Positions 612 to 41,737 of a stretch of DNA of 64,000 bases are shown in pieces; position 1 is the stretch's first letter, and the number at the start of each line of letters is the position of its first letter. The notes under the pieces were generated by a model, which saw only the letters and a program-made list of their open reading frames with translations, did not search any database and was not told where the DNA came from. The DNA is taken from the NCBI RefSeq assembly GCF_020216025.1, contig NZ_JAIWNC010000001.1, positions 248,001 through 312,000 of the forward strand, in the 5' to 3' direction. Both the position numbers and the translations under genes were made by a program. The stretch comes from Jidongwangia harbinensis. Its GTDB lineage: Bacteria; Actinomycetota; Actinomycetes; Mycobacteriales; Micromonosporaceae.

Positions 612-628
612 TCATCTGGCGGGGATGA
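612..628. promoter_or_regulatory. Island dyad site 1 (TCATCTGGCGGGGATGA)
   Basis: 6-5-6 inverted repeat TCATCT-N5-GGATGA, 34 bp upstream of the lipoprotein start at 577 (minus strand). One of 21 related sites in this window. Confidence 0.75.
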
Positions 629-642
629 AACACCGGGAAAGG

Positions 643-676
643 GGGATGCCGGCCCGCCCACACGGGCCGGCATCCC
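643..676. terminator. 14-bp perfect stem, 6-nt loop
   Basis: GGGATGCCGGCCCG pairs with CGGGCCGGCATCCC across loop CCCACA. It lies 100 bp beyond the stop of the leftward DUF1269 gene (776) and before the promoter of the lipoprotein operon, the right place for a rho-independent-type terminator; there is no U-tract, as is common in actinobacteria. Confidence 0.7.
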
Positions 677-681
677 ATGGG

Positions 682-709
682 TGCCGGCCCGTCACCACTC
701 GGGCCGGCA
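682..709. terminator. Second hairpin, 10-bp stem, 8-nt loop
   Basis: TGCCGGCCCG pairs with CGGGCCGGCA. It repeats the arm sequence of the neighbouring hairpin at 643-676, so the leftward DUF1269 gene ends in a tandem double hairpin. Confidence 0.55.
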
Positions 710-775
710 TCCCCTAGGAATCCGGCTGCCCGTCCCCAGGTCCTCGCCGGAGACCGGGCGGGCGCCGGATCGGTC

Positions 776-1315
776 TCACGGGGCGGTCGAGGCCGACGAG
801 GTCGCCACCGGGTCCGCCTGGGCACCGTCGGCGTCGCCGTGCAGCGCCTCCTGCAGTTCCGCCTCGGTCTCCTTGGGGAGCGAGGACTTGAGCACCGTGC
901 CGCCGAACTGCGCAAGTCCCTCGACCGCCTTGTCCGGGGTGACGTGCTCGACCACGAGGAACAGCGCGGACGTGCCCGGCTCGAGCATGTCGCGGACCTG
1001 GGCCTGGAACTCCTTGTTGATCGCACCCTTGGTCATCTTGCCCATCAGGGCTCCGAGCCCCGCACCGACCGCCATGCCGAGGAACGGGATGAAGAAGAGC
1101 ACGCCGAACAGCAGGCCCCAGAACATGCCCCAGGTCGCGCCGCCGCCCACCTCGTGATGGTTGGTGGTGACGTGGAACTTGCCCTCCCGGTCGCGGATGA
1201 TGGCCGCGATGGCGTCGGGCTGGATGATCAGATCCTTGGCGAGACGTTGTGCCTCCAGCGACGCAGCCGTCGCGGTGGTCTCGTCGGGGTAACCGATGGC
1301 GACGAGTGTTGCCAT
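776..1315 (-). CDS. DUF1269 family protein
   Basis: 179 residues. An N-terminal alpha/beta region (MATLVAIGYPDETTATAA...) is followed by a glycine-rich hydrophobic hairpin at about 60-95 (WGMFWGLLFGVLFFIPFLGMAVGAGLG) and then a second soluble half ending GTSALFLVVEHVTPDKA. This is the DUF1269 layout: a soluble domain interrupted by a membrane-like glycine hairpin. A paralog lies at 14579-15067. Function is unknown; the family is often found with general stress genes. Its dyad (1405) is 89 bp upstream in a divergent promoter shared with the DUF6325 gene at 1532. A double hairpin follows the stop. Confidence 0.9.
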   Translation of the reverse strand: MATLVAIGYPDETTATAASLEAQRLAKDLIIQPDAIAAIIRDREGKFHVTTNHHEVGGGATWGMFWGLLFGVLFFIPFLGMAVGAGLGALMGKMTKGAINKEFQAQVRDMLEPGTSALFLVVEHVTPDKAVEGLAQFGGTVLKSSLPKETEAELQEALHGDADGAQADPVATSSASTAP

Positions 1316-1404
1316 GATTCGTACACATCCCTTCGCTGATCTGCCCCGCCGGTTTCGCGTCTCCGGCGTCCGACCCAGTCAGCCACGGCGGCCGGACCCC
1401 AGCC

Positions 1405-1421
1405 TCATTCCCGGCGAATGA
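1405..1421. promoter_or_regulatory. Island dyad site 2 (TCATTCCCGGCGAATGA)
   Basis: Perfect 6-5-6 inverted repeat TCATTC-N5-GAATGA, 89 bp upstream of the leftward DUF1269 gene (start 1315). Confidence 0.8.
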
Positions 1422-1426
1422 AGCTG

Positions 1427-1457: not shown

Positions 1458-1474
1458 TCACCCCCACCGGATGA
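1458..1474. promoter_or_regulatory. Island dyad site 3 (TCACCCCCACCGGATGA)
   Basis: 6-5-6 dyad TCACCC-N5-GGATGA, 57 bp upstream of the rightward gene at 1532. Confidence 0.75.
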
Positions 1475-2254: not shown

Positions 2255-2271
2255 TCACCCGCAGCGGGTGG
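2255..2271. promoter_or_regulatory. Island dyad site 4 (TCACCCGCAGCGGGTGG)
   Basis: TCACCC-N5-GGGTGG, one mismatch from perfect symmetry, 34 bp upstream of the ATG at 2306. Confidence 0.7.
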
Positions 2272-2305: not shown

Positions 2306-2845
2306 ATGACTGCCACCGACCCACAAGCCGCATCCCTGTCCACCCCGGCCGGTCCGGCGCGCCCCGCGGTCGTGCGGTGGGCGGACACCGTGCTGGGCGC
2401 CGCGTTCGCGGCCGAGGACACCACGTCGGATCTGGTCACCGGGCTGCGCCGGGCCGCGGCACGGCACCGGCGGCGCGTCGCCGGGCTGGCCGACCGGGGC
2501 GCCGCGGAACGCGCGCGCTGGCGGCAACGGGCCGAGCGGACCGCCGACGACGCGGTGGTCACGGTCGCCACCTCGCCGGTCCTCGACCGCGTGGTGGACC
2601 ACCAGCTGGAACGGATCCTCCGGCCGGTGGTGCGGGCCGTCCTCGACGACGTCCTGCTGTTGCTGGAGAAGGAACCCGAGCGGATCCAGGCGCTCATCCG
2701 CGGGCAGCGCGAGAGCATGGTCGACGAACTGGTCGGACGGCTGCGGGCCGGCGCGGACGCCGGCGACACCGCGGTCGAAGGGCTGGCCGTCCGGGTGTTC
2801 CGGCGGGGTCCCCGCCGGACCCCGGCACCGCCTCCCGAGCTGTGA
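2306..2845 (+). CDS. Conserved hypothetical protein upstream of RDD protein
   Basis: 179 residues, arginine- and alanine-rich, helical, no membrane span and no signal peptide. The centre (about 85-120, TSPVLDRVVDHQLERILRPVVRAVLDDVLLLLEKEPERIQALI) looks like amphipathic helices. The ATG at 2306 was chosen because the upstream in-frame starts would run through the terminator and dyad. Its stop overlaps the GTG of the RDD gene by 4 bp (GTGA), so the two are translationally coupled and may act as partners at the membrane. No family recognised. Confidence 0.7.
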   Translation: MTATDPQAASLSTPAGPARPAVVRWADTVLGAAFAAEDTTSDLVTGLRRAAARHRRRVAGLADRGAAERARWRQRAERTADDAVVTVATSPVLDRVVDHQLERILRPVVRAVLDDVLLLLEKEPERIQALIRGQRESMVDELVGRLRAGADAGDTAVEGLAVRVFRRGPRRTPAPPPEL

Positions 2846-3300
2846 GCGCCCCGGCGCAGCGGACGTACGCCGGGCCGGTCACCCGGACGGTCGCGTACCT
2901 GATCGACGCGTTCCTGGTCACCGCCCTGTTCACCGCCGGCACCGCGATCGCCAGCCTGATCACCCTGGTTGTCGGAGCGCGGGTGCACGACCTGGCGCTC
3001 GCCGCCGCGTCGGCCGGGCTGGTGGTGCTGCCCGCCCTGTTCGCGACGTACTGCGCGCTGTTCTGGACGCTCGCCGGCCGGACCCCGGGCATGGCGGTAC
3101 TGGGCCTGCGGGTGGTCGCCGCGCGCCCGCGCCGGCTGACCTGGCCGGCGGCACTGCTGCGCGGCCTGGTGCTGGCCTACTTCCCGGTGGGAGCGGTCTG
3201 GGCCCTGGTGGACCGGCGGCACCAGGCGGTACACGACAAGGTGGCCCGGACCGTGCTGATCCGGGTCCGGGCCCACCGCGACGGCGACCGCCGGTTCTGA
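2842..3300 (+). CDS. RDD family membrane protein
   Basis: 152 residues. The N-terminal motif TRTVAYLIDAFLVTALF carries the R...D pair that names the RDD family; later comes TPGMAVLGLRVV with its conserved G-L-R, followed by RGLVLAYFPVGAVWALVDRRHQAVHDKVARTVLI, the usual C-terminal H-D-x-x-A-x-T-V pattern. Three to four membrane spans. RDD proteins are small inner-membrane proteins of mostly unknown role, some linked to ion transport. Start GTG at 2842 overlaps the preceding stop. Confidence 0.9.
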   Translation: MSAPAQRTYAGPVTRTVAYLIDAFLVTALFTAGTAIASLITLVVGARVHDLALAAASAGLVVLPALFATYCALFWTLAGRTPGMAVLGLRVVAARPRRLTWPAALLRGLVLAYFPVGAVWALVDRRHQAVHDKVARTVLIRVRAHRDGDRRF

Positions 3301-3309: not shown

Positions 3310-3326
3310 TCACCTTGGCGGGGTGA
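3310..3326. promoter_or_regulatory. Island dyad site 5 (TCACCTTGGCGGGGTGA)
   Basis: TCACCT-N5-GGGTGA, 90 bp upstream of the M48 peptidase start at 3417. Confidence 0.7.
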
Positions 3327-3416: not shown

Positions 3417-4283
3417 GTGTCGAAGTCCACGCGGCACCCCGCCACCCCCGCCGGCCGGCTACGGCACCCCGCCGAGCTGCCGTTCTTCATCTTCATGGTG
3501 GTACTCAACGTGCTCATCATCGTCGCGATCGTGCAGGCCGCCGTGATGCTTCCGGGCCTGCCCGAGCGGTTCCACGACACCGGCTGGGCCACCGCGGTAC
3601 GCAGTGCCCTGATCGGCCTGCTGCTCCTGGTCCCGACGCTGATCGTGGTACGCGAGACGCAGCGGGCGTCGATCCGCGGCACCGCGGTCGAGCTGTCCCC
3701 GCGCCAGTACCCGGAGCTGTACCGCACGGCGGACGAGTTCGCCCAGCGTCTCGGGCTCCGCCGGCGGCCGCAGATCTATCTGGGCAACGGCAACGGGGCG
3801 CTGAACGCGTTCGCGGCACAGGCCACCGGCCACGACTACGTCGTGCTGTCCAACGAGCTCTTCGTGAACCTGTACCACGGCAACCGGGACGGCCTGCGGT
3901 TCATCCTGGGACACGAACTGGGCCACATCCGGCTGCACCACGTGTCGCTGTGGTACCAGCTGGCGGTGGCCTACTCGGAACGGATCCCGCTGCTCGGCCC
4001 GGCCCTGTCACGGCTGCGGGAGTACTCCTGCGACCGGCACGGCGCCCATCTGGCGCCGCTGGGCATGACCGGCCTCGTGCTGCTGGCGTCGGGCCGCCAC
4101 ACCGAGCACGTCGTCGACGTGGACGAGCTGGTCCGGCAGGGCCGGTCGCTGCACGGCTTCTGGGTGGGGCTGGCCCAGCTGCCGCGCTCGCACCCGTTCA
4201 CCGTCCGCCGGCTGGAACGCCTGTACCGCCTCGGGCTGTTCCACGCGCGGCTGCGCGAGGCCGAGACGGAGACGCCGGTCTGA
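3417..4283 (+). CDS. M48 family membrane metallopeptidase
   Basis: 288 residues. Two hydrophobic spans near residues 21-45 and 62-79 anchor it. The zinc site HELGH is at 166-170 (FILGHELGHIRLHH), and the third ligand is the glutamate in LREYSCDRHGA near 202. This is the HtpX/Oma1-type M48 layout, used for membrane protein quality control. GTG start at 3417 is chosen for its RBS (GAGGAGGATCGCT). It is a single-gene unit with its own dyad, convergent with the DUF2252 gene 14 bp away. Substrate unknown; the regulatory site links it to the stress set. Confidence 0.9.
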   Translation: MSKSTRHPATPAGRLRHPAELPFFIFMVVLNVLIIVAIVQAAVMLPGLPERFHDTGWATAVRSALIGLLLLVPTLIVVRETQRASIRGTAVELSPRQYPELYRTADEFAQRLGLRRRPQIYLGNGNGALNAFAAQATGHDYVVLSNELFVNLYHGNRDGLRFILGHELGHIRLHHVSLWYQLAVAYSERIPLLGPALSRLREYSCDRHGAHLAPLGMTGLVLLASGRHTEHVVDVDELVRQGRSLHGFWVGLAQLPRSHPFTVRRLERLYRLGLFHARLREAETETPV

Positions 4284-4297: not shown

Positions 4298-5740
4298 TCA
4301 CACGCCGTCCCGGAACGGGATCCGGCCGGAACGCGCCGCGGCCGCCAGCAGGCCGTGGTCGCGCTCGTTGCGGTCCGCGTAACGCTCGGCGAACTCGACC
4401 ATCACCCGGTCGAACTTGTCGCTGCCGCCGAGGTATCCGGCGATCGCCATCCGGTCACCGGTGCGGGCGTGCGCCCGGGCGAGCGTCCAGCCGCAGAGGG
4501 CGGCGTACACCCGCATCGCCTCCGGGTCCATCGTCTCGACGACCGCCGAGCCCTTCCAGTCGCGCAACTGCCGCACGTAGAAGTCGCGCCGCCGGCCGTC
4601 GAAGCCGGCGGCCCGGTGCCAGCCCAGGAAGATGTCGCCGGTGGCCTGCATCAGCCGTTGCCCGGACACCACCCGTTCGCCCTCGCTGTGCCACTCGGCC
4701 TCCGGCCGGTCCGGAACGTGCCCGGCCAGGACGGACGGCGGCGCCTCCTTCACCTGCAGCAGCAACGGATCGTTCTCGTCCCGGCCGCTGAGCAGGACCA
4801 CCCAGCACCGGGTACCGACGCTGCCCACGCCGACGACCTTGCGGGCCAGGTCCACGAACCGGTACGCCTCGAACAGCCGCCGCCGGTCCGGGGCCAGGGT
4901 GCCGGCGTAACCGGCGAGCAGCCCGCAGACCCGGTTCTCCAGATCCGTGCGGCCGCTGTCGGGCAGCAGATCCTGCACCGGGACCAGCAGCGGTGGGTCC
5001 GCGGCGAGCCGTCGCCGGCCGTCCACCAGCGCCGTCAGCTTGCGGAACGCGTGCACGCTGTCGTGGGTGCGCGCCTTGGCCTGGGCCGCGGCGAAGCGCT
5101 TCCGCCGGGCCCCGCTGAGCTGGTCCTTGAGCAGCGCGTTGACCTCTTCCATGTCGGCGCGGGCGTACCAGACGTCGACGTGCCCCAGGTCGGCGAAGCG
5201 GCGCATCGCCTGCCGGTAGCGGCCGGCCGCGGCGAGCACCACCCCGGCCCGTTCGCGGCGCCGGAAGCCGTTGCCGCGACCGGCCACGGCGAGGCTCGCC
5301 ACCAGGCGCTTCAGGTCCCACTCCCACGGGCCCGGATGGGTCTCGTCGAAGTCGTTGACGTCGAAGACGAGCCGCCGCTCCGGCGAGCCGAACACGCCGA
5401 AGTTGCTCAGGTGCGCGTCCCCGCAGAGTTGACAGGTCAACCCGGAGGTGGGGGTACGCCCGAGGTCCGCGGCCATCACCGCGGCGGCGCCCCGGAAGAA
5501 CGCGAACTCCGACACCAGCATCCGGCCGTAGCGGATCGGCACCAGCTCGGGCAGCCGGGTCGCGGACTGCGCGACGAGCACCTCGACCGGATTCGGCCGA
5601 TCACCGTCCGCCGGCACGCTCACGTGGGATTCGAACGGTACCCGGGCGCGGGCGGCCCGCCCGGCGGCCCGCCGGGCAGCCGGGGCCGCGGACGGCGAGG
5701 CCGTCGTGCCGGTGCTCTCGTTCGCGGTCCGAACTGCCAT
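4298..5740 (-). CDS. DUF2252 family protein, kinase-like fold
   Basis: 480 residues. An alanine-rich N-terminal 50 residues is followed by the DUF2252 core: CQLCGDAHLSNFG near 120 and VFDVNDFDETHPGPWEWDLKRLVAS near 145. These resemble the catalytic GDxHxxN and metal-binding DFD of aminoglycoside-kinase-like enzymes, so a small-molecule phosphotransferase is plausible; the substrate is unknown. Start ATG at 5740 is fixed by AGGAGGTGTGCC; the frame is open further upstream without an RBS. A degenerate dyad lies 74 bp upstream, next to the better one serving the divergent ppk2. Confidence 0.9.
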   Translation of the reverse strand: MAVRTANESTGTTASPSAAPAARRAAGRAARARVPFESHVSVPADGDRPNPVEVLVAQSATRLPELVPIRYGRMLVSEFAFFRGAAAVMAADLGRTPTSGLTCQLCGDAHLSNFGVFGSPERRLVFDVNDFDETHPGPWEWDLKRLVASLAVAGRGNGFRRRERAGVVLAAAGRYRQAMRRFADLGHVDVWYARADMEEVNALLKDQLSGARRKRFAAAQAKARTHDSVHAFRKLTALVDGRRRLAADPPLLVPVQDLLPDSGRTDLENRVCGLLAGYAGTLAPDRRRLFEAYRFVDLARKVVGVGSVGTRCWVVLLSGRDENDPLLLQVKEAPPSVLAGHVPDRPEAEWHSEGERVVSGQRLMQATGDIFLGWHRAAGFDGRRRDFYVRQLRDWKGSAVVETMDPEAMRVYAALCGWTLARAHARTGDRMAIAGYLGGSDKFDRVMVEFAERYADRNERDHGLLAAAARSGRIPFRDGV

Positions 5741-5814: not shown

Positions 5815-5831
5815 CCATCCGTCGGGGACGA
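5815..5831. promoter_or_regulatory. Island dyad site 6, degenerate (CCATCCGTCGGGGACGA)
   Basis: CCATCC-N5-GGACGA, one mismatch per half-site, 74 bp upstream of the DUF2252 start at 5740. Confidence 0.45.
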
Positions 5832-5857: not shown

Positions 5858-5874
5858 TCACTCACCGGGGATGA
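5858..5874. promoter_or_regulatory. Island dyad site 7 (TCACTCACCGGGGATGA)
   Basis: TCACTC-N5-GGATGA, 57 bp upstream of ppk2 at 5932; the same distance as site 3 from its gene. Confidence 0.75.
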
Positions 5875-6841: not shown

Positions 6842-7084
6842 ATGCTTGAGGCGTCGTACCAGGTCAGAGTCGCCGGGGTGATCCCGGCGGAGTTGTTGTC
6901 GGAGCTGCACGACCTGACGGTCAGCGTGGAGCCGCCGGAGACGGTGCTGCACGGGTCGCTGCCGGACCAGTCCGCGGTGGTGGGCCTGATCTCCCGCATT
7001 CACGGGCTGGGGCTCCGCCTGATCGAGGTGCGGCGGCTGCCCAACGACGAGGGTCCCGAGACCCTGCTGGATCCGACCCGCTGA
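6842..7084 (+). CDS. Small conserved hypothetical protein (paralog of 22473-22691)
   Basis: 80 residues, RBS GAGGGAGGAAGCGAC before ATG. Pattern Y-x-V-x-V-x-G-x-x-P near the start, TVLHGSLPDQSAVVGLISRIHGLGLRLIEV in the middle. The 72-residue protein at 22473-22691 shows the same order: [11 protein letters not shown], then [29 protein letters not shown]. Both are probably small beta-alpha-beta proteins. It lies between ppk2 and a K+ channel in one operon. No known domain recognised. Confidence 0.75.
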   Translation: MLEASYQVRVAGVIPAELLSELHDLTVSVEPPETVLHGSLPDQSAVVGLISRIHGLGLRLIEVRRLPNDEGPETLLDPTR

Positions 7085-11040: not shown

Positions 11041-11057
11041 TCGTCCGCGGCGAGTGA
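11041..11057. promoter_or_regulatory. Island dyad site 8 (TCGTCCGCGGCGAGTGA)
   Basis: TCGTCC-N5-GAGTGA, 34 bp upstream of the leftward antiporter start at 11006. Confidence 0.6.
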
Positions 11058-11114: not shown

Positions 11115-11131
11115 TCACTCCCACCGGATGA
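11115..11131. promoter_or_regulatory. Island dyad site 9 (TCACTCCCACCGGATGA)
   Basis: TCACTC-N5-GGATGA, 72 bp upstream of the rightward gene at 11204. Nearly the same 17-mer as site 3. Confidence 0.75.
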
Positions 11132-13735: not shown

Positions 13736-13752
13736 TCATCCCGGTGGGATGA
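13736..13752. promoter_or_regulatory. Island dyad site 10, perfect (TCATCCCGGTGGGATGA)
   Basis: The best copy: TCATCC-N5-GGATGA with exact dyad symmetry, followed by GG, 36 bp upstream of the ATG at 13789. Confidence 0.85.
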
Positions 13753-14305: not shown

Positions 14306-14548
14306 ATGAGGGACAACCGCAAGATCGCCCAGCAGCGTCTCGTCACCGCGCTCGACGTGCTGCGCGGACGCCGACCCAAGTTCGACTACGGCCTGCTGCT
14401 GGTGATGCCGTTTCTCGCCGCGGCGGGCGGAGTCCTGATCTCCCTGGCCATCGACAACGCGGTCGAGCGGCGCCGGGCGAACGGCGCGGCCGTGCCGGAT
14501 TCATCCGGCACGGATGGAGCATCCGCAAAGGTGCGGGCCGAAGCTTGA
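14306..14548 (+). CDS. Small single-span protein
   Basis: 80 residues: basic N-terminus (MRDNRKIAQQRLVTALDVLRGRRPKFDYG), one span at about 31-50 and a polar tail rich in alanine and serine. ATG at 14306 was preferred over the GTG nine bases earlier because AGAGG then lies 8 nt upstream. It sits 37 bp after the DUF2231 gene and 30 bp before the DUF1269 gene, so the three form one unit. No family recognised. Confidence 0.65.
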   Translation: MRDNRKIAQQRLVTALDVLRGRRPKFDYGLLLVMPFLAAAGGVLISLAIDNAVERRRANGAAVPDSSGTDGASAKVRAEA

Positions 14549-18132: not shown

Positions 18133-18149
18133 CCATCCCTGGCGAGTGA
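18133..18149. promoter_or_regulatory. Island dyad site 11 (CCATCCCTGGCGAGTGA)
   Basis: CCATCC-N5-GAGTGA, 62 bp upstream of the GTG at 18070 (leftward unit). Confidence 0.6.
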
Positions 18150-18194: not shown

Positions 18195-20864
18195 TCAGAT
18201 CAGGCCCAGGGCCCGGGCCCGGCGCACCGCCTCGTTGCGGCGGGACGCGGACAGCTTGCGGAGGATGCTGCGGACGTGGGTCTTGACCGTGTTGATCGAC
18301 ACGAACAGCCGGGCGGCGATCTCCTCGGTCGGCAACATGGCGGCGATGCCCTGCAGCACCTCCATCTCGCGCCGGCTCAGCGGCTCGACCAGGATCGGTC
18401 CGGTGTCCGGCGCGCCCGATCCGCCGGAGTCACGCCCGGCGCCCTGCAGCACGCGGTGTTGTTCGGCCAGTTCGTCGTCGTCGCGCAACAGCCGGCGCAG
18501 CTGGGCCCAGACCTGGTGCACCGCCCGCCGTTGCGCCTCCGGGATGGCGTGCCGGAGCGCGTGCCCGAGCGCGCTCCGGGCCTCCTCGGTGTCCCCGTCG
18601 TGCGCCGCCACCGTCGCCATCACCAGCCAGGCGTCCACCGCCACCGGCGAGGGCAGCCCCACCGCCACCAGGACCGGCCGGAGCAGTTCCCGGGCCGGCT
18701 CCGCGTCGCCGACCCCGACCAGGGCCGCGGCGTGGGCCACCCGGACCGCGTGGTGGGCCGGTGCGGGCAGCGCGCTGACCAGCCGGAGCGCGTCGCCGGC
18801 CCGCCCGACGGTGATCATCAGCCGGGCGCGCGCCAGGACGATGTCGCGGGCCAGCCAACGCGGTCTTCTTCGTCCGTCCGTCCGCTCGGCCTCGTCGAGC
18901 AGCTCGGCGGCGCCGCGTAACTCGCCCCGCGCCTGCAGCCGGCGCGCCTTCACCAGTGCGATGGTCGCGGTGGTCAGCGGGTCGGCGTCGGACCGCCGCC
19001 GCTGACCGGCGATGCGCAGATGGTGGCCGGTCGCGTCGACGTCGTAGCGTTCCATGGCCACCCACGCCAGCGCGGCGTGAGCGGTGACCGGCCGCCGGGC
19101 CGCCTCCAGGCCACACCGCTCCGCGATGTCGATCGCCTCCTCGGCGAGCCGCTCGGCGTGTCCGAGACGTCCGCGGTGCGCTTCGATGACGGCCAGGTGT
19201 TCGAGGCATTCAATTCGTGGGTACTGGTTATCCGGGTCAGCCTTGGCTATCGCCCGGGTGAAGGTGACCGCTGCCGCGTCGATCGCGCCCTGCCGGCTCT
19301 GTGCCCGGCCCTTCGCGGCCAGCAGCAGCACCGACAGTTCGGGGTGCCGGGCCAGCTGACCCGGTGGTGCGTGGGCCAGCGCCTGTTCTGCCGCGGCGGA
19401 GCAGCTGAGCACCTGCTCCTCCGTGCCGTACGCGTCCGCGAGCATGACCCGCAGCAGCAGGTCCGAGAGGGTGACGGCCGGGTCGTCACCCGCGGCGGCC
19501 CCGCCGTCCGGCCGCAGCCGCCACAGGTGCTGGGCGCAGTCCGCGGCGGAGCCGTCGGCGAGCGCCAGCGCCGCGGCGACCAGCGCCACCTGCGGAGTTT
19601 CCAGGTCGGTGGGCAGCTGGTGCAGGAGCCGGCCGATCCCTCCGGTCCGGCCGTCGATGAGGAGACGGCCGATGGCGTAGTGCTCGATGACGACCGTCGC
19701 GGCGGCGTCCCAGTCGCCGGCCTTGACCGCGTGGGCCACCGCGTCCGCGGTCTGCCCGCGTTCGGCGAACCACGCGGCGGCACGGCGGTGCAGCACCCGT
19801 AGCCGCTCCGGGGCGGCACACAGCAGCTGGGCCAGCAGGAGCTCGGCGAAGAGCCGGTGGAAGCGGTAGACGGTCGAGTACTCGGCGACCGGCTGAACGA
19901 ACGCGTTGCGGCGTTCCAGATCGGTCAGGATGCCCCGGGCGTCGGCCCGGCCGCTGACCGCCTCGGCCAGCTCGGCGGTGAACGTGTCCAGCACGCTGAT
20001 GTCCAGCAGGAACGACCGCACGTCGTCGGGCTGTACCCGGAGCACCTCGTCGAAGAAGTACTCGGCGATCGTCGCCTCGTTGCCGGTGATGGTGTCGACG
20101 ATGCGGTCCGCGTCCTCCCGGCCCTGCAGGGCCATCGCGAACAGCCGCAGGCCCGCGGCCCAGCCCTCGGTGTGTTCGAGCAGCGAGGCCAGTTTCGCCG
20201 GACTGAGGTGCACGCCGTGCAGGCCGAGAAGCTTGGCGGCCTCGTCGGCGGTGAAGGCCAGATCCGCGCTGCGGATCTCGAGCAGCCGCCCGGCCAGCCG
20301 GTAGCGGTGCGTCGGCAGCGGGGGGTCCCAGCGTCCGATCAGGACGAGCCGCAGCAGCGGGGCGGTGTGGCGGAGCACGAACTCGAGCTCGGCGGCCCAT
20401 TGGCTGCCGGCCAGGTCGGAGACGCCGTCGAGGACCACCAGGACGGGCTTCCGCAGACGGCTCAGCTCGGCCGCGAGCCGGACCAGGAAGGACCGGTCGA
20501 CCGGCGACGACACGGGCGAGGCGGCCACGGACGGTGAGATCGCCAGGCCGGCATCGCGCAGCGCCTCGACGATGACCGTCCAGAACGGACAGGACCGGTC
20601 GTCGTCCTCGAGGTTGATCCAGGCGACCGCGCCGGAGGCCCGGGCCTCGGTGACCCACGAGGCCACCAGCTGCGTCTTCCCGCTGCCGGGTGGCCCGACG
20701 ACCACGGTGACCGGCGCATCGCTGCCGCTGAGCCGGTTCAACAGGCGCGGGCGGGTGACCGCGAAGGGTGGACGATCGGGAACGTCGAACCTGGAGCGTA
20801 GGAGCGGATCATCGATGGTCGTCTCGTGACTTACCGAAACCAACGCGGAGGTAACAGCACGCAC
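18195..20864 (-). CDS. LAL (MalT-like) LuxR family transcriptional regulator 1
   Basis: 889 residues. An N-terminal ATPase with Walker A GPPGSGKTQL (about 58-67) and Walker B PVLVVLDGVSDL is followed by winged-helix and TPR-like helical repeats in the middle and a C-terminal LuxR HTH (SRREMEVLQGIAAMLPTEEIAARLFVSINTVKTHVRSILRKL). This is the MalT layout: ATP- and ligand-gated activator. GTG start at 20864 follows AAGGGGG. It lies inside the dyad-rich island and is a prime candidate to bind those sites. Unusual operator-like repeats lie 60-110 bp upstream of its start. A paralog is at 23033-25705. Confidence 0.93.
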   Translation of the reverse strand: MRAVTSALVSVSHETTIDDPLLRSRFDVPDRPPFAVTRPRLLNRLSGSDAPVTVVVGPPGSGKTQLVASWVTEARASGAVAWINLEDDDRSCPFWTVIVEALRDAGLAISPSVAASPVSSPVDRSFLVRLAAELSRLRKPVLVVLDGVSDLAGSQWAAELEFVLRHTAPLLRLVLIGRWDPPLPTHRYRLAGRLLEIRSADLAFTADEAAKLLGLHGVHLSPAKLASLLEHTEGWAAGLRLFAMALQGREDADRIVDTITGNEATIAEYFFDEVLRVQPDDVRSFLLDISVLDTFTAELAEAVSGRADARGILTDLERRNAFVQPVAEYSTVYRFHRLFAELLLAQLLCAAPERLRVLHRRAAAWFAERGQTADAVAHAVKAGDWDAAATVVIEHYAIGRLLIDGRTGGIGRLLHQLPTDLETPQVALVAAALALADGSAADCAQHLWRLRPDGGAAAGDDPAVTLSDLLLRVMLADAYGTEEQVLSCSAAAEQALAHAPPGQLARHPELSVLLLAAKGRAQSRQGAIDAAAVTFTRAIAKADPDNQYPRIECLEHLAVIEAHRGRLGHAERLAEEAIDIAERCGLEAARRPVTAHAALAWVAMERYDVDATGHHLRIAGQRRRSDADPLTTATIALVKARRLQARGELRGAAELLDEAERTDGRRRPRWLARDIVLARARLMITVGRAGDALRLVSALPAPAHHAVRVAHAAALVGVGDAEPARELLRPVLVAVGLPSPVAVDAWLVMATVAAHDGDTEEARSALGHALRHAIPEAQRRAVHQVWAQLRRLLRDDDELAEQHRVLQGAGRDSGGSGAPDTGPILVEPLSRREMEVLQGIAAMLPTEEIAARLFVSINTVKTHVRSILRKLSASRRNEAVRRARALGLI

Positions 20865-20924
20865 GGGACCCCCTTCCGCGGGCGCTAATCAGGAATTCAG
20901 CCTCTGCGGTACGCGTCAGTAGCG

Positions 20925-20954
20925 CATCCTCCGGATCGGATAATTCGGAGGATG
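20925..20954. promoter_or_regulatory. Inverted repeat upstream of LAL regulator 1
   Basis: CATCCTCCG at 20925-20933 and CGGAGGATG at 20946-20954, spacer 12. Inside and after it the 11-mer TCCGNATCGGA occurs twice (20930-20940 and 20965-20975). Located 60-110 bp upstream of the LAL start; a likely operator distinct from the island dyad. Confidence 0.55.
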
Positions 20955-21038: not shown

Positions 21039-21055
21039 TCATCCGGCGGGCATGA
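21039..21055. promoter_or_regulatory. Island dyad site 12 (TCATCCGGCGGGCATGA)
   Basis: TCATCC-N5-GCATGA, 61 bp upstream of the lipid-kinase ATG at 21117. Confidence 0.7.
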
Positions 21056-22691: not shown

Positions 22692-23032
22692 GGCTTCGGG
22701 CTCTCCCGCCGTGGTCGGCTTACGGGGAACGTCTGCCCCGATCGTGCTCCGATCCGCGACGGCGCAGCTCATCCATGACGGGTGGACCCGGTGCAAGTAC
22801 TGCCACGCCGACTGTTGCGTCGGCCCGCCCTTCCGTGATGGCCTGCCGGTGAGGGAACGGATCATGGGTCCGCACCGGCGCGCCGCCCGCCCAGGCGCGC
22901 CGGCGGACCGCTGCGCTGCACACCGCGGAATCGTGGACCCTGTCGGTGGCTGCTCCGCCGGGCGACGCATCCGCGTCCCTCAGCGGAACACCGCCTGCAC
23001 GCAGGTGGCGGGACGCGAAGAGGGGAACAAGG
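22692..23032. other. Intergenic stretch with one dyad and one hairpin
   Basis: 341 bp between the divergent small protein and LAL regulator 2. It holds dyad site 13 (22769-22785) and a GC-rich hairpin (CCGGCGCGCC at 22875-22884 with GGCGCGCCGG at 22894-22903, loop 9). No ORF with an RBS was found; the rest is probably the leader and promoter of the LAL gene. Confidence 0.6.
22769..22785. promoter_or_regulatory. Island dyad site 13 (TCATCCATGACGGGTGG)
   Basis: TCATCC-N5-GGGTGG, 77 bp upstream of the small leftward gene (start 22691). Confidence 0.65.
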
Positions 23033-25705
23033 GTGAAGCAGCACGGTGAAGCGAACCAGCCGGGTGGGCCGCCGGCCGTCCGGGCCGCGCCGGTGCTGGC
23101 CGCACCCAAGGTGTCCCGGCCCAGCGTCAGCCGGTCCAGCCTGCACCGGGCCCGCCTGACCGAACTGCTGGACGCCGGCGCGCGGCGGCCGGTCACGCTG
23201 GTCAGTGCCGGTCCGGGGTGGGGCAAGACCACGCTGGTGTCGGCGTGGGCGGCGACCCAGCGCCGGCCGGTGGCCTGGTTGACACTCGACCGTACCGACA
23301 ACGATCCCCGCGTGTTCTCGGCGAACATCTTCGCGGCCCTGCGGTCCGCGACGGCCGGCCGGCTGCCGGCCGACCTCGGTCCCGGGCCCGGCGACGGCCT
23401 CGCGTGGCTCCGGGAGCTGGGTGGCGTGCTCGACCGGCTCCCGGCCCCGATGGTGCTCGTTCTCGACGACGTCGATGTGATCGACGATGCCCGGCTGGTC
23501 CGGGAGCTGAGCATCCTGCTGCGCCCGCCGCGGGCCGGGCTGCGGACCGTGCTGATCAGCCGTTCGGAGCCGGCGCTGCCGCTGCACCGGCTGCGCGCGG
23601 CCGGCGAACTGACCGAGATCCGCGCCGGTGAGCTCGCCTTCGACGCGGCCGAGGCGGCCACGTTGCTCGCCGGTCAGGGGGTCAGCCTGCCACCGGACGA
23701 GGTGGCGGTGCTGGTGCAGCGGACCGAGGGCTGGGCGGTGGGCCTGCAACTCGCGGCGGCCTTCGTCGCCGGCCCGGACGGCGGCTCCGTCGCCGACTTC
23801 ACCGGCGACGTGCGGCCGGTCGACGACTACCTGTCCGAAGAGGTGCTGGCCCGCCAGACTCCGCAGGTACGGACGTTCCTGCTGTACACCAGCATCTGCG
23901 AGCAGCTGTGCGGCGAACTGGCCGACGCGCTCACCCTGGAACGCACCGGGCAGCGTTTCCTGGAACAGCTCGAGCAGGTCAACCAGTTCGTCGTCCGGCT
24001 CGACTCCCGGCCCTTCTGGTTCCGCTACCACCACCTGGTCCGGGACGTGCTGCAGCACCGTCTGATGCTGGAGGCCCCGGAGATGGTGCAGCTGCTGCAC
24101 CGCCGGGCCGCCGACTGGTACGCCCGGCACGATCTCATCCTGGACGCTCTCGGCCATGCGGTCGCCGCGCAGGACTGGTCGTATGTCGGCCGGCTCGTGG
24201 TGGACGCGGCGCCGATGATCCTCTCCCGCGAGCGTGCCCGGCTGGTGAAGGTGATCGAGCAGGTGCCGGCCGGCGTGTTCGCGCGCACGGCCGAACTGGC
24301 CGTGTCCGAGGCGATGCTGCTGTTCAACGCCGGCGACTACGCGGGCCTCCACGAGCGGCTGGGCGAGGCGCGGGCCAAACTGGCCGGTCGGTCCGACGCC
24401 GAGGGCCGCCCGGCCGGAATCGCGATCCGGGCGCTGGGAGCCGCGGTGAGCCGGGTGGACGGCGACATGCCGGCGATCCTCGACAGCACCACCGAGCAGC
24501 TCGCCGCGCTCGCCCACGTGTCGTTCGCGCGGCTGCCCTCGACGCTGCAGTACCGGGCGATCGCGTTGAACAACAAGGGCGTGGCGCTGCTGTGGACCGG
24601 ACGGACCGAGGCCGCCCAGCGATACCTCGCCATGGGGGCGGCCGCCGCAGGTGCGGCCGGTGTGGGACTGGTCGAGATCAACGCGCTCGGGCACCTGGCG
24701 TTGCTCGAGGTGATGTTCGGGTCGGTGCGGGAGGCCGAGCGGCGGGCCGGCACCGCGTTGGACAAGGCGGCCCGTGGCGGATGGACGAACGCGCTGCAGA
24801 CCGTGCCCGCGCATCACGCCATGGCCCTGGTCGAGTTGGAACGCGGTCGCCCGGAACGGGCCGACCAGGCGCTGCAGCGGGGCTCACGCGCGCATCGCAG
24901 CGACCCCGAGGCGGCCCAGTGGAAGATGACGCTGGGCATCGCGGCGCGGCTGGCGATGGCACAGGACCGGGTGCCCAACGCACGGGCGTTGCTGACGGAG
25001 GCCCGCCGTCCGCGCTACCCGCGGGCCCGGCTGCCGGAGGTCGACCGCTGGCTCCTGGCCACCGAGTCCGAGGCGGACCTGCGCTCCGGCCGGCCCGATC
25101 TGGTTCGGCAACGGTACGGCCCACCGGGCCGGCCCGCCACGCTGACCCTGCCGGAGCGGAACCTGCTGGTTCGCGCGGCGCTCGCCACGCGCGACCTGAG
25201 CGGGGCGCAGTCGTCGCTGACCGAGCGGGGTTCGCTGATGTCGGAGACCGTGGCGACCGTCGAGGCGCGCATCCTGGACGCCCTGGTGTCCGACGCCGCC
25301 GGGCACGGACTCCGGGCCGGCGAGATGCTGGGCAGGGCGATCGCGCTCGCGGCGCCGGAGGGGATCCGCCGCCCGTTCCTGGAGCTGGCCGGCGGGCGGC
25401 TCGCTCACCTGATCGACCGGCAGAACCTGACCGCGGGCGAACACCCCCCGTTCGTCGCCGACCTCGTCCAGCGCATCGGCGCGGCCGGCCGGAACGGCAC
25501 CGCGCGTGCCGCGAGCACCCTGAGCGAACGGGAGACCGAGGTGCTGCGCTACCTGCCGACCATGTTGACGGCGGCGGAGATCGGGGAGGAACTGGGGGTG
25601 TCGGTCAACACGATCAAGGCGCACATGCGGGCGATCTATCGCAAGCTCGGTACCGCACGACGCCGGCAGGCGGTGGCCCGTGCCCGCGAGCAAGGACTGC
25701 TCTAG
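23033..25705 (+). CDS. LAL (MalT-like) LuxR family transcriptional regulator 2
   Basis: 890 residues. Walker A SAGPGWGKTTL near 55-65, Walker B MVLVLDDVDVI, helical TPR-like middle and C-terminal LuxR HTH (SERETEVLRYLPTMLTAAEIGEELGVSVNTIKAHMRAIYRKLGTARRRQAV). Same architecture as LAL 1 with conserved blocks such as the helix after EGWA.GL.L. GTG at 23033 was chosen because AGAGGGG precedes it and the domain starts soon after. Its TAG stop lies in a CTAG shared with the stop of the convergent DUF7144 gene. Likely an ATP-dependent activator. Confidence 0.92.
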   Translation: MKQHGEANQPGGPPAVRAAPVLAAPKVSRPSVSRSSLHRARLTELLDAGARRPVTLVSAGPGWGKTTLVSAWAATQRRPVAWLTLDRTDNDPRVFSANIFAALRSATAGRLPADLGPGPGDGLAWLRELGGVLDRLPAPMVLVLDDVDVIDDARLVRELSILLRPPRAGLRTVLISRSEPALPLHRLRAAGELTEIRAGELAFDAAEAATLLAGQGVSLPPDEVAVLVQRTEGWAVGLQLAAAFVAGPDGGSVADFTGDVRPVDDYLSEEVLARQTPQVRTFLLYTSICEQLCGELADALTLERTGQRFLEQLEQVNQFVVRLDSRPFWFRYHHLVRDVLQHRLMLEAPEMVQLLHRRAADWYARHDLILDALGHAVAAQDWSYVGRLVVDAAPMILSRERARLVKVIEQVPAGVFARTAELAVSEAMLLFNAGDYAGLHERLGEARAKLAGRSDAEGRPAGIAIRALGAAVSRVDGDMPAILDSTTEQLAALAHVSFARLPSTLQYRAIALNNKGVALLWTGRTEAAQRYLAMGAAAAGAAGVGLVEINALGHLALLEVMFGSVREAERRAGTALDKAARGGWTNALQTVPAHHAMALVELERGRPERADQALQRGSRAHRSDPEAAQWKMTLGIAARLAMAQDRVPNARALLTEARRPRYPRARLPEVDRWLLATESEADLRSGRPDLVRQRYGPPGRPATLTLPERNLLVRAALATRDLSGAQSSLTERGSLMSETVATVEARILDALVSDAAGHGLRAGEMLGRAIALAAPEGIRRPFLELAGGRLAHLIDRQNLTAGEHPPFVADLVQRIGAAGRNGTARAASTLSERETEVLRYLPTMLTAAEIGEELGVSVNTIKAHMRAIYRKLGTARRRQAVARAREQGLL

Positions 25706-26356: not shown

Positions 26357-26373
26357 TCATCCAGCTGGGGTGA
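26357..26373. promoter_or_regulatory. Island dyad site 14 (TCATCCAGCTGGGGTGA)
   Basis: TCATCC-N5-GGGTGA, 67 bp upstream of the leftward DUF7144 start (26289). Confidence 0.75.
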
Positions 26374-26411: not shown

Positions 26412-26428
26412 TCATTCCGCCCGGATGA
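26412..26428. promoter_or_regulatory. Island dyad site 15 (TCATTCCGCCCGGATGA)
   Basis: TCATTC-N5-GGATGA, 59 bp upstream of the rightward Rv1733c-type gene (26488). With site 14 it forms a divergent pair 38 bp apart. Confidence 0.78.
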
Positions 26429-28774: not shown

Positions 28775-28791
28775 TCACCACGCGCGGGTGA
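28775..28791. promoter_or_regulatory. Island dyad site 16 (TCACCACGCGCGGGTGA)
   Basis: TCACCA-N5-GGGTGA, 31 bp upstream of the leftward ThrE gene (start 28743). Confidence 0.65.
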
Positions 28792-28824: not shown

Positions 28825-28841
28825 TCATCCCCGGCGAGTGA
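28825..28841. promoter_or_regulatory. Island dyad site 17 (TCATCCCCGGCGAGTGA)
   Basis: TCATCC-N5-GAGTGA, 68 bp upstream of the rightward MFS gene (28910). Confidence 0.75.
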
Positions 28842-38588: not shown

Positions 38589-38666
38589 CACGCGCCCCCA
38601 GGGTCCGAGCAGGCCGATCCCGCCCGGTGTACGGGTTCACGTTCACGCCTGATCGACACCCGCCCC

Positions 38667-38683
38667 TCACCCCGGGCGGATGG
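38667..38683. promoter_or_regulatory. Island dyad site 18 (TCACCCCGGGCGGATGG)
   Basis: TCACCC-N5-GGATGG, about 78 bp upstream of the P-type ATPase start. Confidence 0.65.
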
Positions 38684-38773: not shown

Positions 38774-38790
38774 TCATTCCCCGGGGATGG
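38774..38790. promoter_or_regulatory. Island dyad site 19 (TCATTCCCCGGGGATGG)
   Basis: TCATTC-N5-GGATGG, 35 bp upstream of the short gene at 38826. Confidence 0.68.
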
Positions 38791-38825: not shown

Positions 38826-39083
38826 ATGGACCCCAGCCGTGGAGCCCGCGCCGACACCCTGTTCACCGTCGCCGCGGTGACGGCCGCGGTGCTGGTCGTG
38901 CCGTGGACCGCGGGGTGGAGCGCCCAGCGCACACATCCCGAGGACGTGGGGACCGGTTCCGCGGAGTGTTTCCCGATCGTCGTCCTGCTCGACGAGCCGG
39001 CCGGACCACCTCCCGCGACGGGTGCCGGGCCCGGCGCCCCGGCACCCGGCCGGATCGGAAGCATCCTGGTCTGCGGGCGATAA
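38826..39083 (+). CDS. Short Rv1733c-like membrane protein
   Basis: 85 residues: RADTLFTVAAVTAAVLVVPWTAGWSAQRTHPEDVGTGSAECFPIVVLLDEP and a proline-rich end. The start resembles the first span and loop of Rv1733c-type proteins such as 26488-27048, but the extracytoplasmic domain is cut short and the second span is missing. It may be a naturally short form or a degenerate remnant. Its dyad and an in-place terminator suggest it is expressed. ATG at 38826 follows CAGGGG with tight spacing. Confidence 0.55.
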   Translation: MDPSRGARADTLFTVAAVTAAVLVVPWTAGWSAQRTHPEDVGTGSAECFPIVVLLDEPAGPPPATGAGPGAPAPGRIGSILVCGR

Positions 39084-39170: not shown

Positions 39171-39470
39171 TCACAGCGGCGACGTCGCGCGCTCCCGTCG
39201 CGTGCCGTCGGCGCGCGGACCGACCGGCGCGCCGCGCCAGGCACCCATCCCGGCGGACCCGGCCGCCCTGGCCCGCAACCACTGCCGCCGCGCCAGCTCC
39301 GACGGCGGGATCTCCATCCGCGCCACACGATTCCGGGTCAGGGACGCGACCGCGACGGTGCACAGGGCCAGCCCGGCGATCCCGAGAGCGCCGGCGGTCG
39401 CCTCCAGCACCGCCGCCGCGACCAGGAGCCGGCGGACCGACCGTGCGGACTGTGGCAGTTTTCGTACCAT
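39171..39470 (-). CDS. Small membrane protein, hypothetical
   Basis: 99 residues: basic N-terminus (MVRKLPQSARSVRR), one or two hydrophobic stretches (LLVAAAVLEATAGALGIAGLALCTVAVASL, about 15-44), then a basic tail with SELARRQWLRARAAGSAG. ATG at 39470 follows GGAGGCTCGACG. Dyad site 20 lies 71 bp upstream. I recognise no family. Confidence 0.65.
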   Translation of the reverse strand: MVRKLPQSARSVRRLLVAAAVLEATAGALGIAGLALCTVAVASLTRNRVARMEIPPSELARRQWLRARAAGSAGMGAWRGAPVGPRADGTRRERATSPL

Positions 39471-39541
39471 CGTCGAGCCTCCACTCTGGACCGCGTCGAG
39501 TTGCGCTGTGCCCACCCTGGCAGGCACCGCGCGGCCCGGCG

Positions 39542-39558
39542 TCATCCCGGTGGAGCGA
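39542..39558. promoter_or_regulatory. Island dyad site 20 (TCATCCCGGTGGAGCGA)
   Basis: TCATCC-N5-GAGCGA, same left half and spacer as the perfect site 10, 71 bp upstream of the gene starting at 39470; it lies between that gene and the glutaminase stop. Confidence 0.65.
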
Positions 39559-39582
39559 CTTCCGGGACCCCGGCGCCGCCGG

Positions 39583-40575
39583 TCAGGTCGCCGGCTCCGA
39601 GGCGAACAGTGTCAGGCCCATCCGGCGGGACAGGAACCTGGCCGCCAACTGGCCCCGCACGCTGTTCCCGTACCCGTCGAGCGGTGGGGCGAAGGTGGCC
39701 AGAGCACCCTTGCCGGGTGACACGACGATGATGCCGCCACCGATGCCGCTCTTGCCGGGCACTCCGACGTCGTACAGCCAGTCGCCGGTGGTCTCGTACA
39801 GGCCGGCCGTCGCCATCACCGCGAGCGTGAACTGGCAGACCGGCGCACGCACCACCCGTTCCTTCGTCCACGGATTGACTCCGCCGTTGGCCAGGGTCGC
39901 GCCCATCACCGCGAGGTCGATCGCGGTGACCCGCAGGCAGCTCTGCCGGGTGTACAGGTCGACGGCGTCGACCGGGTCGCAGCCGAGAAGCCGGAAGGCC
40001 CGCAGCAGGTCGGCGAGCGCCCGATTGCGGTGGTTGGTCGCCGAGGCCGACCGGTGGACCTCGTCGTCGAGCGCCAGCGCGCGCCCGGCGAACCGCGACA
40101 GTCCGTCGTGAAGGAAGCGCCACCGGGCCTCCGCGGTGTCGCCCGGGGCCAGGCTGGCGGTGGCGATCGCGCCGGGGTTCACCATCGGGTTGGTACGCCC
40201 GTCCCGGCCCTGTTCCACCGCCGCCAGCGAGTTGAACGGAAGCCCGGTGGCGTTGACCCCCAGCCGCCGCCGCACCTCCTGCGGGCCGAGCGTGTCGCAG
40301 AGCAGCGCGAACACGAACGGCTTCGCCACGCTCATGATGGTGAACTCGAACCCGGCGTCACCGACCGCGTGCCGGCCGCCGCGGGTTCCGGCGGCACAGA
40401 GGCCGAACAGGTGGGCCGGCACACCGGCCAGGGCGGGGTAGACCTGCGACCGCTCTCCCGTCGTCTCCCCGCGGTAGCGCTCGTACGCCTCGTCGAGCAG
40501 TCGCCGCACCTGTTCCGGGGAGGGAAGTTCACCGGTCGAGACGTACGGGGCGGCGTCGGAGTCGAACAGGTCCAT
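39583..40575 (-). CDS. glsA: Glutaminase A
   Basis: 330 residues. Serine-dependent beta-lactamase-like fold: FTIMSVAKPF holds the nucleophile Ser and Lys (S-x-x-K), followed by GLPFNSLAAVEQG, NPMVNPGAIA, SASATNHRNRALA and CLRVTAIDLAVMGATLANGG, all GlsA signatures; the C-terminus has GKSGIGGGIIVVSPGKG. It deaminates glutamine to glutamate and ammonia in the cytoplasm, and the ammonia can neutralise acid. ATG at 40575 follows GGAGGGCACC. It lies 63 bp after the lipoprotein gene on the same strand, so both probably share dyad site 21. Confidence 0.96.
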   Translation of the reverse strand: MDLFDSDAAPYVSTGELPSPEQVRRLLDEAYERYRGETTGERSQVYPALAGVPAHLFGLCAAGTRGGRHAVGDAGFEFTIMSVAKPFVFALLCDTLGPQEVRRRLGVNATGLPFNSLAAVEQGRDGRTNPMVNPGAIATASLAPGDTAEARWRFLHDGLSRFAGRALALDDEVHRSASATNHRNRALADLLRAFRLLGCDPVDAVDLYTRQSCLRVTAIDLAVMGATLANGGVNPWTKERVVRAPVCQFTLAVMATAGLYETTGDWLYDVGVPGKSGIGGGIIVVSPGKGALATFAPPLDGYGNSVRGQLAARFLSRRMGLTLFASEPAT

Positions 40576-40638
40576 GGTGCCCTCCACAGGCCGGCCCGGC
40601 GCACCGGGGCCGCGGTCGTCCGCGGACGGTGCCGCCGG

Positions 40639-41658
40639 TCAGGGCTGGAACGCCGGCGTGCCCGGGTCCCCGGCCGCGGGCGGCTCCGGCTCCGGCCGGC
40701 CGGCGAGTACCGCGGCGAGCGCGTGCTCCGCCCGATTGACCCGGGGGCGGAGCAGCATCCAGTTTCGTCCGGCCGCCATCTCCTCGCTCTCCGCGTCCAC
40801 GGCCGCGATCAGTTCCGCGAGCCGGCCGCTCAGCTGCAGCGACCAGTTCCGCCGGGCGTCTCCGGAGGCGCGCTCGGTGAGCGAGTTCCACCGGCCCTGC
40901 ACGTCGGTGAGGTCGGCGCGCACCGGCGGCCACGCCAGCCCCCGGCGGGCGGCGGCGCTGGTGCTGAGCACCGGTGGCAGACGCACCGCGGTGACGGTGC
41001 GGGTCTCCGACTCCAGCGCCCGGGCCTCGGTGTCCCACGCCGATCGCTGCTGCGACCGGCTGAGCAGTACCCCGCCGACGACCAGCGCGCCGACGAGCAG
41101 GAGCAGTGCCGTACAGGCGAGCAGGCTCGGGCCGGACGTTCCGGCGACCGCCACGGCGGCGGACACGGACCCGGCCGGCGCCGGGGTGGTGGTCGCGGCC
41201 GGCGTGGTGGTACGGGTGGTCGGAACGGGTTCCGGCTCCGCGGCGACGGTCGGGGCCGGCGGCCGGGCGGTGGCCGCGGCCGGCACCGTGGTCCGGGTCG
41301 TCTGGTCCGGCTCCGGCTCCTCGGTCGCGCGGGAGGTCGGCGGGCGGTCCGTGGTCTCGGCCGGTGCGGCGGTCCGCGTGGTCCGCGTCGGCGCCGGCTC
41401 CTCGGCCGCGGGCGAGGTCGGCGGCCGGACCGTGGTCTCGGTCGGTGCGGCGGTCCGCTCCGCGTCGCGCGTCCGGGTGGGGTCCGGTTCGTCGGCGGTG
41501 GTCCGGTCGGTGGCCCGTGTCGATGCACCGCCCGACGGCCGGGCCGGCGGATCCTCGCCGCCGGCGCCGCAGGCCGCCGTGGCGAGGACCGTGCCGAGAA
41601 GCAACGCTGCGAGGACGGTCCGGGTACCGGTCCGTCGATGATCATGCGTGGACGCCAT
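40639..41658 (-). CDS. Predicted lipoprotein with threonine/proline-rich linker
   Basis: 339 residues. N-terminal lipoprotein signal (VLAALLLGTVLATAACGAGG). Residues about 35-160 are a low-complexity T/P/E/R-rich stretch with imperfect repeats (TTRTTxPAxTTxRPPT), then a span at about 179-200 (LLACTALLLLVGALVVGGVLLS) and a helical domain with WNSLTERASGDARRNWSLQLSGRLAELIAAVDAESEEMAAG. If the lipid anchor and span are both used, the linker is outside and the C-terminal domain inside. Dyad site 21 is 62 bp upstream; glutaminase follows. No family recognised. Confidence 0.75.
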   Translation of the reverse strand: MASTHDHRRTGTRTVLAALLLGTVLATAACGAGGEDPPARPSGGASTRATDRTTADEPDPTRTRDAERTAAPTETTVRPPTSPAAEEPAPTRTTRTAAPAETTDRPPTSRATEEPEPDQTTRTTVPAAATARPPAPTVAAEPEPVPTTRTTTPAATTTPAPAGSVSAAVAVAGTSGPSLLACTALLLLVGALVVGGVLLSRSQQRSAWDTEARALESETRTVTAVRLPPVLSTSAAARRGLAWPPVRADLTDVQGRWNSLTERASGDARRNWSLQLSGRLAELIAAVDAESEEMAAGRNWMLLRPRVNRAEHALAAVLAGRPEPEPPAAGDPGTPAFQP

Positions 41659-41720
41659 GCGGGGCTCCCAGTCGCCGGAGTGGTAGCGGCGACGCTAGCC
41701 CCGGCGCCGAAACGGCCGGA

Positions 41721-41737
41721 TCATTCCGCGCTGATGA
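41721..41737. promoter_or_regulatory. Island dyad site 21 (TCATTCCGCGCTGATGA)
   Basis: TCATTC-N5-TGATGA, 62 bp upstream of the lipoprotein/glutaminase unit. This is the rightmost copy I found. Confidence 0.65.

Follow-up and report, generated by a model that had tools for sequence, protein, structure and literature searches.

What governs a 41-kb island in the genome of Jidongwangia harbinensis, where one short dyad recurs before gene after gene? The island lies in a 64,000-nt stretch of contig NZ_JAIWNC010000001.1 (assembly GCF_020216025.1, positions 248,001 to 312,000), hereafter the window, whose numbering we use throughout. An earlier reading made from the letters alone (the sequence-only reading) had listed 21 copies of a 17-bp dyad, TCAYYC-N5-GRRTGA, and proposed that it is the operator of a single regulon, without naming the regulator. 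We put at about 90% the probability that the dyad is the operator of LAL1, a MalT/LAL-type regulator encoded in the island, which would bind it where the -35 box otherwise lies and so activate some 20 island promoters together. The regulon is already known from Actinoplanes sp. SE50/110, and this genome is a further member.

Spacing, promoter phase and conservation of the dyad

Each of the 21 listed positions holds the dyad: 8 copies are exact, 12 have one mismatch and one (5815) has two. The copy singled out as best, at 13736, is indeed a perfect palindrome. With up to one mismatch allowed, the window contains 22 matches against 1.57 expected, a count reached in 0 of 100 dinucleotide shuffles. 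At up to two mismatches the number is near chance (29 matches against 19.8 expected; 3 of 100 shuffles get to 29). The stricter search also finds two unlisted sites, one at 14501 with a -10-like hexamer in phase and one at 39704, which lies inside a glutaminase gene and lacks such a hexamer. Across the 9.74-Mb genome (120 contigs) there are 18 exact sites, 8 of them in the island, and a reversed-pattern control gives 0.

Using gene boundaries from a home-made gene caller, we placed 20 of the 22 window sites between genes although 90.5% of the window is coding (binomial P ~7e-19). Over 18 regions, namely the window and 17 regions of relatives, 203 of 236 dyads with up to one mismatch are intergenic.

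The spacer is strict. In the 18 regions, 115 exact sites have a spacer of 5 bases, compared to at most 4 at any other spacer from 0 to 24. The distance to the presumptive promoter is also fixed: a -10-like A-N3-T lies 22-24 bases past the dyad at 17 of the 21 listed window sites and, counting either direction, at 200 of the 236 dyads in the 18 regions, compared to 8-31 of 236 at 14 other offsets. The same phase is seen for 66 of 78 dyads in 11 further Micromonosporaceae loci (other offsets, up to 15%) and for 169 of 212 dyads in 64 loci of other actinobacteria (other offsets, 3-13%). At the six divergent promoters, for which one site per direction had been proposed, an in-phase -10 accompanies 8 of the 12 sites.

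Start codons cluster 34-35 nt past the dyad (31 of 200 oriented sites), as in leaderless messages; 143 of these 200 sites are flanked by divergent genes, of which the nearer was taken as the target. For 6 of the 21 listed window sites, an in-frame start codon follows at a distance of 32-37 nt. With the A placed at -11 and the T at -7, the dyad would reach from about -51 to -35 and be centred near -43, so that it would stand in for the -35 box in the manner of a class II activator site.

To follow the dyad at orthologous promoters, we ran tblastn with 42 window proteins against the 17 regions and 75 named loci. The upstream dyad is kept in 152 of 221 Micromonosporaceae homologs of 18 lead genes, a count that leaves out the open reading frame (ORF) at 38826. 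By lead gene (first coordinate), retention is 22/23 (776), 16/16 (11204), 15/16 (22473), 14/15 (1532), 9/9 (176), 9/9 (3417), 7/7 (17603), 11/14 (26488), 10/12 (21117), 9/11 (5953), 7/10 (35772), 3/4 (9735), 2/3 (13840), 5/12 (28979) and 2/5 (27481), with three lower values discussed below. Genes 39171 and 40639 have no Micromonosporaceae homolog in this tblastn set. When all genes are counted, inner operon genes included, a dyad lies upstream of 215 of 457 and downstream of 69 of 457.

Two outcomes had been named in advance as fatal to the single-operator proposal, namely hits in coding DNA as frequent as those in intergenic DNA and loss of the dyad from orthologous promoters. Neither was found, and the proposal is supported. 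The statement that the dyad precedes nearly every transcription unit is likewise correct, except that neither regulator gene in the window, LAL1 or LAL2, has a dyad at promoter spacing.

The published regulon and the probable regulator LAL1

Droste et al. (2020) described TCATCC-5-GGATGA in a 51-gene region of the acarbose producer Actinoplanes sp. SE50/110, where the palindrome precedes 17 starts and its 3' end lies 34.4 +/- 1.0 nt before the start (PMC7567727), a measured distance with which the starts predicted here from sequence would agree. By quantitative reverse-transcription PCR, 42 of the 51 genes fall in the absence of the MalT-like regulator ACSP50_3915, and 39 of 51 rise upon its overexpression (PMC7567727). 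The paper saw the motif in four more Micromonosporaceae, with Pseudosporangium ferrugineum among its species. Among the open-access papers listed for the motif or the region, Droste et al. 2020, which PMC11205506 cites, is the only one with this motif for an actinobacterial MalT.

Because the palindrome, the regulator pair and shared genes recur in SE50/110, the regulon of the window is a known one. The SE50/110 island (ACSP50_3900-3950) resembles the window in palindrome, spacer, distance to the start (predicted here) and two MalT-like regulator genes, and in encoding an amino-acid permease, a ThrE-type exporter, a dipeptidase and an aminopeptidase P; a ppk2 gene occurs in the paper's other species. 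Unlike SE50/110, the window has no arginine-deiminase operon among its scanned genes. It has a glutaminase, a P-type ATPase and two PPK2 genes, some predicted targets lie outside the island, and its regulon is predicted from sequence. Two relatives in our set connect directly to the published work. One is P. ferrugineum, whose LAL1 is 74% identical. The other (genome G137) carries, behind a dyad, an operon of glutamine amidotransferase, permease, arginine deiminase, carbamoyltransferase, amino-acid-kinase and phosphoesterase genes; as this is the order given in PMC7567727, the genome is very probably SE50/110 or a near strain.

LAL1 and LAL2 share one domain architecture (Table 1), that of MalT. 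LAL1 has the Walker A motif GPPGSGKT and can be aligned with Escherichia coli MalT along 830 columns (hhalign probability 100%, 25% identity; match to MalT chain 8bob_C at 1.2e-33); within the DNA-binding domain the identity is 37%. The recognition helices are NTVKTHVR in LAL1 and TTIKTHIR in E. coli MalT. Four groove residues are tied to the maltotriose response in E. coli MalT (PMC10427625). In 16 of 16 LAL1 orthologs, other residues stand in place of three of them (N386, W524 and I532), and the fourth, S383, aligns to a gap, in a sensor region that is 20% identical and uncertainly aligned. LAL1 is very probably the counterpart of ACSP50_3915 and the regulator that reads the dyad, an assignment in which homology and the published genetics give us high confidence.

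Within the genus, sites tend to be more numerous in genomes that have a LAL1 ortholog. Among 15 sampled genomes, in each of which 6 candidates were scored as possible orthologs, the 11 with a LAL1 ortholog have 7-36 exact sites and the 4 without have 3, 3, 3 and 8 (Mann-Whitney, one-sided P 0.0036). A search of these four genomes with LAL2 as the query confirmed this, giving no relative better than about 1e-11. DUF1269, a lead gene of the island, is absent from all four and present in the 2 genomes with LAL1 that were tested. A similar comparison with DUF2252 was uninformative, with no dyad within 1.5 kb of its homologs at 12 loci of the genus with or without LAL1.

We hypothesize that LAL1 would contact the dyad itself, acting as an ATP-bound oligomer as E. 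coli MalT does, and that an activator centred at -43 would touch RNA polymerase. The two systems are alike in STAND/LAL architecture, in the KTH of the DNA-binding helix, in a GGATGA core (the E. coli box is GGGGA(T/G)GAGG) and in a box edge at about -35. E. coli malP offers GGATGAGG with A-N3-T at offset 23, a weak parallel, as this is one of six such offsets in 40. They differ in that the actinobacterial sites are compact 6-5-6 inverted repeats whereas the malP boxes lie apart, that no mal genes were recognised in the regulon and that the maltotriose-groove residues are not kept.

Other actinobacteria and competing explanations

With the LAL1 alignment as query, we took the best 80 of at least 493 relatives, comprising 16 loci of Micromonosporaceae and 64 of other actinobacteria. 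The 16 contain 122 dyads compared to 8.1 expected, and the 64 contain 212 compared to 32.9 expected. The outside loci span Streptomyces, Kitasatospora, Streptacidiphilus, Kutzneria, Actinomadura, Nocardiopsis, Kribbella and one Streptosporangiaceae metagenome-assembled genome. In them, 96 exact sites have the 5-base spacer and at most 3 have any other. The Streptomyces cyaneochromogenes locus has DUF7144, Na+/H+ exchanger, DUF2252 and diacylglycerol kinase genes as in the window, together with SHOCT and SfLAP proteins. New in this work is the finding that MalT-type LAL genes of Streptomyces, Kutzneria, Actinomadura and other genera also have the dyad beside them, with its strict spacer and its -10 phase.

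In 47 of the 64 loci, first genes behind a dyad join one single-linkage cluster of 83 members with a median length of 68 aa. This commonest cluster includes window genes 22473-22691 and 1532-2071, the second of which, a far longer gene, may have joined by chance. The two members tested, 22473-22691 and one from a relative (L155), have no Pfam or NCBIfam match.

A further set of 20 Micromonosporaceae LAL regions, chosen without regard to the helix, holds 40 dyads, 28 of them with a -10. As a control, 20 arbitrary 20-kb stretches hold 0 exact and 4 one-mismatch dyads, 1 with a -10. Five of the 20 LAL regions have no dyad: two lack a helix match, one has TVNTLRTH and two have a KTH helix.

The most serious competitor to LAL1 as the main reader is LAL2, alone or sharing the dyad with LAL1. 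LAL2 has the same domain set, and a dyad lies within 5 kb of 22 of 23 genes nearer to LAL2 than to LAL1. We nevertheless consider it unlikely. The KTH of E. coli MalT is present in LAL1, whereas LAL2 has KAH; a KTH-helix LAL is present at each of the 64 outside loci, whose fetched DNA contains no KAH-type gene, and still 62 of them have at least one dyad. Deletion of the second SE50/110 regulator, ACSP50_3917, had only slight effects, reported as unpublished data (PMC7567727). Still less probable is a repressor operator. An overlap with the -35 box, at the position deduced above, would suit steric repression, but a centre at about -43 is a class II activator position, and in SE50/110 deletion of the counterpart lowers transcription and overexpression raises it (PMC7567727).

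A dormancy-type response regulator (DosR/DevR or another NarL-type protein), in keeping with the stress-like genes of the island such as that of the Rv1733c family, is more doubtful again: none of the 40 proteins in or beside the island that were scanned with Pfam has a receiver domain, and LAL genes of different genera have dyads beside them. A dispersed repeat or chance palindromes in GC-rich DNA, conceivable for a short, tolerant motif that is near chance at two mismatches, is refuted by the shuffles, the arbitrary stretches, the strict spacer and the fixed -10 phase.

Several observations weigh against the assignment of the dyad to LAL1 as the activator of these promoters. Called coding sequence holds 33 of the 236 dyads, of which part may be caller error. 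The four listed window sites without an in-phase A-N3-T are all members of divergent pairs (1405, 5815, 11041 and 26412), yet at 11041 the start codon is at leaderless distance. Retention is low for DUF2252 (4/17; 4298), for 25702-26289 (4/23) and for 2372-2845 (3/15). Counts of exact sites overlap within the genus: one genome has only 7 despite the closest LAL1, and another has 8 without LAL1. At least one exact site occurs in 135 of 150 genomes of the family, and seven genomes of another genus (g44) have 9-23 exact sites and LAL relatives only 34-39% identical. One region with a 39% identical LAL (G044) has no dyad in its 20 kb. Several of the same islands also hold LAL2 relatives. Outside Micromonosporaceae, counting all genes, a dyad lies upstream of 63 of 279 and downstream of 64 of 279; 56 of the 64 downstream dyads immediately follow LAL genes, and once the two LAL queries are set aside the numbers are 60 of 157 upstream compared to 8 of 157 downstream. 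We note that the 64 outside loci were found by DNA-binding-domain peptides, so that the KTH helix was selected and the dyads were not. Finally, the published evidence consists of transcript changes and a motif rather than protein-DNA contact (PMC7567727).

Taking these together with the data above, we still favor LAL1 as the reader of the dyad in the window. With less assurance we consider it probable that TCAYYC-N5-GRRTGA is a common operator of the actinobacterial KTH-helix LAL class, replacing the -35 box at constant phase, and that the class serves ion, membrane and energy maintenance, not sugar use, with undescribed proteins of about 68 residues as its commonest lead genes.

Genes of the island, further sites and significance

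The sites of the window and the genes behind them are collected in Table 1. Their content, with ion transport, membrane proteins, PPK2 and amino-acid and peptide use, suggests that the regulon serves the upkeep of ions, membrane and energy and not the use of sugars.

Table 1. Dyads, regulator genes and associated features of the window.
Feature	Position	Strand	Genes and remarks
Dyad	612..628	-	Serves 176-577 (minus); start codon 577 at leaderless distance
Exact dyad	1405..1421	-	Precedes DUF1269 gene 776-1315 (minus); no A-N3-T at 22-24
Exact dyad	1458..1474	+	Serves 1532-2071
Dyad	2255..2271	+	Serves 2306-2845 (leaderless ATG); by position also RDD-family gene 2842-3300
Dyad	3310..3326	+	Serves M48-peptidase-like gene 3417-4283
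Weak dyad (2 mismatches)	5815..5831	-	Precedes DUF2252 gene 4298-5740; no in-phase -10 in that direction
Exact dyad	5858..5874	+	Serves PPK2 gene 5953-6807; by position also 6842-7084 and ion-channel gene 7098-7772
Dyad	11041..11057	-	Serves Na+/H+ exchanger 9735-11006 (leaderless GTG, no A-N3-T); by position also phosphodiesterase-like 7780-9738
Exact dyad	11115..11131	+	Serves DUF6069 gene 11204-11689
Best dyad (perfect palindrome)	13736..13752	+	Serves DUF2231 gene 13789-14268; ATG 13789 at leaderless distance
One-mismatch dyad, previously unlisted	14501..14517	+	Plus-strand -10 in phase
Dyad	18133..18149	-	Serves 17603-18070; by position also minus-strand DUF7144, AI-2E transporter and BrkB genes down to 15018
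LAL1, MalT/LAL-type STAND regulator	18195..20864	-	Pfam AAA_16, TPR_MalT, GerE; likely activator
Inverted repeat in LAL1 promoter	20924..20953	-	CATCCTCCG-N12-CGGAGGATG; contains element ATTATCCGATCCGGA
Dyad	21039..21055	+	Serves diacylglycerol-kinase-like gene 21117-22463
Dyad	22769..22785	-	Serves 72-aa gene 22473-22691
LAL2, second MalT/LAL-type regulator	23033..25705	+	Pfam AAA_16, TPR_MalT, GerE; helix NTIKAHMR; likely counterpart of ACSP50_3917
Exact dyad	26357..26373	-	Serves DUF7144 gene 25702-26289
Exact dyad	26412..26428	+	Precedes Rv1733c-family gene 26488-27048 (NCBIfam); no A-N3-T at 22-24
Dyad	28775..28791	-	Serves ThrE-type exporter 27481-28743
Exact dyad	28825..28841	+	Serves MFS transporter 28979-30409; by position also M24 aminopeptidase 30445-31563
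Dyad	38667..38683	-	Serves P-type cation ATPase 35772-38591; by position also PPK2, amino-acid permease and M20 peptidase genes to 31613
Dyad	38774..38790	+	Precedes 85-aa ORF 38826-39083; ATG at leaderless distance
Dyad	39542..39558	-	Serves 39171-39470
Dyad, last of island	41721..41737	-	Serves 40639-41658

The 85-codon ORF behind the dyad at 38774 is possibly an overlooked gene. Like the 72-aa protein of 22473-22691, the 80-aa protein of 6842-7084 has no Pfam or NCBIfam match, and scans of the window with Rfam and for tRNA genes gave no match. Rv1733c is a DosR-regulon gene of Mycobacterium tuberculosis; the gene of its family here sits behind a MalT-type dyad.

Elsewhere in the genome, in-phase dyads on contig C25 (L082, G000:C25:78001-98000) precede a GH63/MGH1-like hydrolase gene, a GH15 trehalase-like gene and an MFS gene, and an 892-aa cluster with an MGH1-like representative supplies the first gene after a dyad at 14 loci of relatives. 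The C25 genes hint that the predicted regulon may touch glucoside turnover in this organism. Further in-phase sites lie on contigs C19, C24 and C30. No in-phase -10 accompanies the exact sites on C16, C23/C29 and C53, and one at C25:2885 is inside a called gene. Two of these, C23:33029 (L003) and C29:31346 (L015), share an identical 17-mer and near flanks and represent either a repeated element or an assembly duplicate.

What controls LAL1 itself may be a different site. A dyad lies within 320 bp upstream of 16 of 92 LAL1-type genes. The inverted repeat at 20924-20953, seen among 16 orthologs in the LAL1 promoter of the window only, is possibly a site for a regulator of LAL1. Its element ATTATCCGATCCGGA, which has one exact copy in the genome, is matched at no fewer than 12 of its 15 bases by 11 of the 16 orthologous LAL1 promoters compared to 0 of 320 mononucleotide shuffles, statistics that are partly circular because the element was chosen from the same 16 sequences used for counting.

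The novelty of this work is limited to a further member of a known regulon and a wider, candidate operator rule. Within those bounds, a formerly anonymous 41-kb island can be read as a regulon whose likely activator is named and whose start sites are predicted, and an independent genome now joins the one strain in which the regulon had been studied. As the maltotriose-response residues are not kept and maltose genes were not recognised in the island, the question of which signal LAL1 senses is sharpened. Actinobacterial LAL regulators are numerous but poorly studied (PMC3282765); the Streptomyces members SCO0877 and SCO7173 belong to the same protein class, and what we consulted of PMC3282765 gives no such operator for them. 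If the dyad is a common LAL operator, the targets and inducers of many of these proteins would become directly testable, and for hundreds of LAL proteins still uncharacterised, from Streptomyces to Kutzneria, the regulon could be read from sequence.

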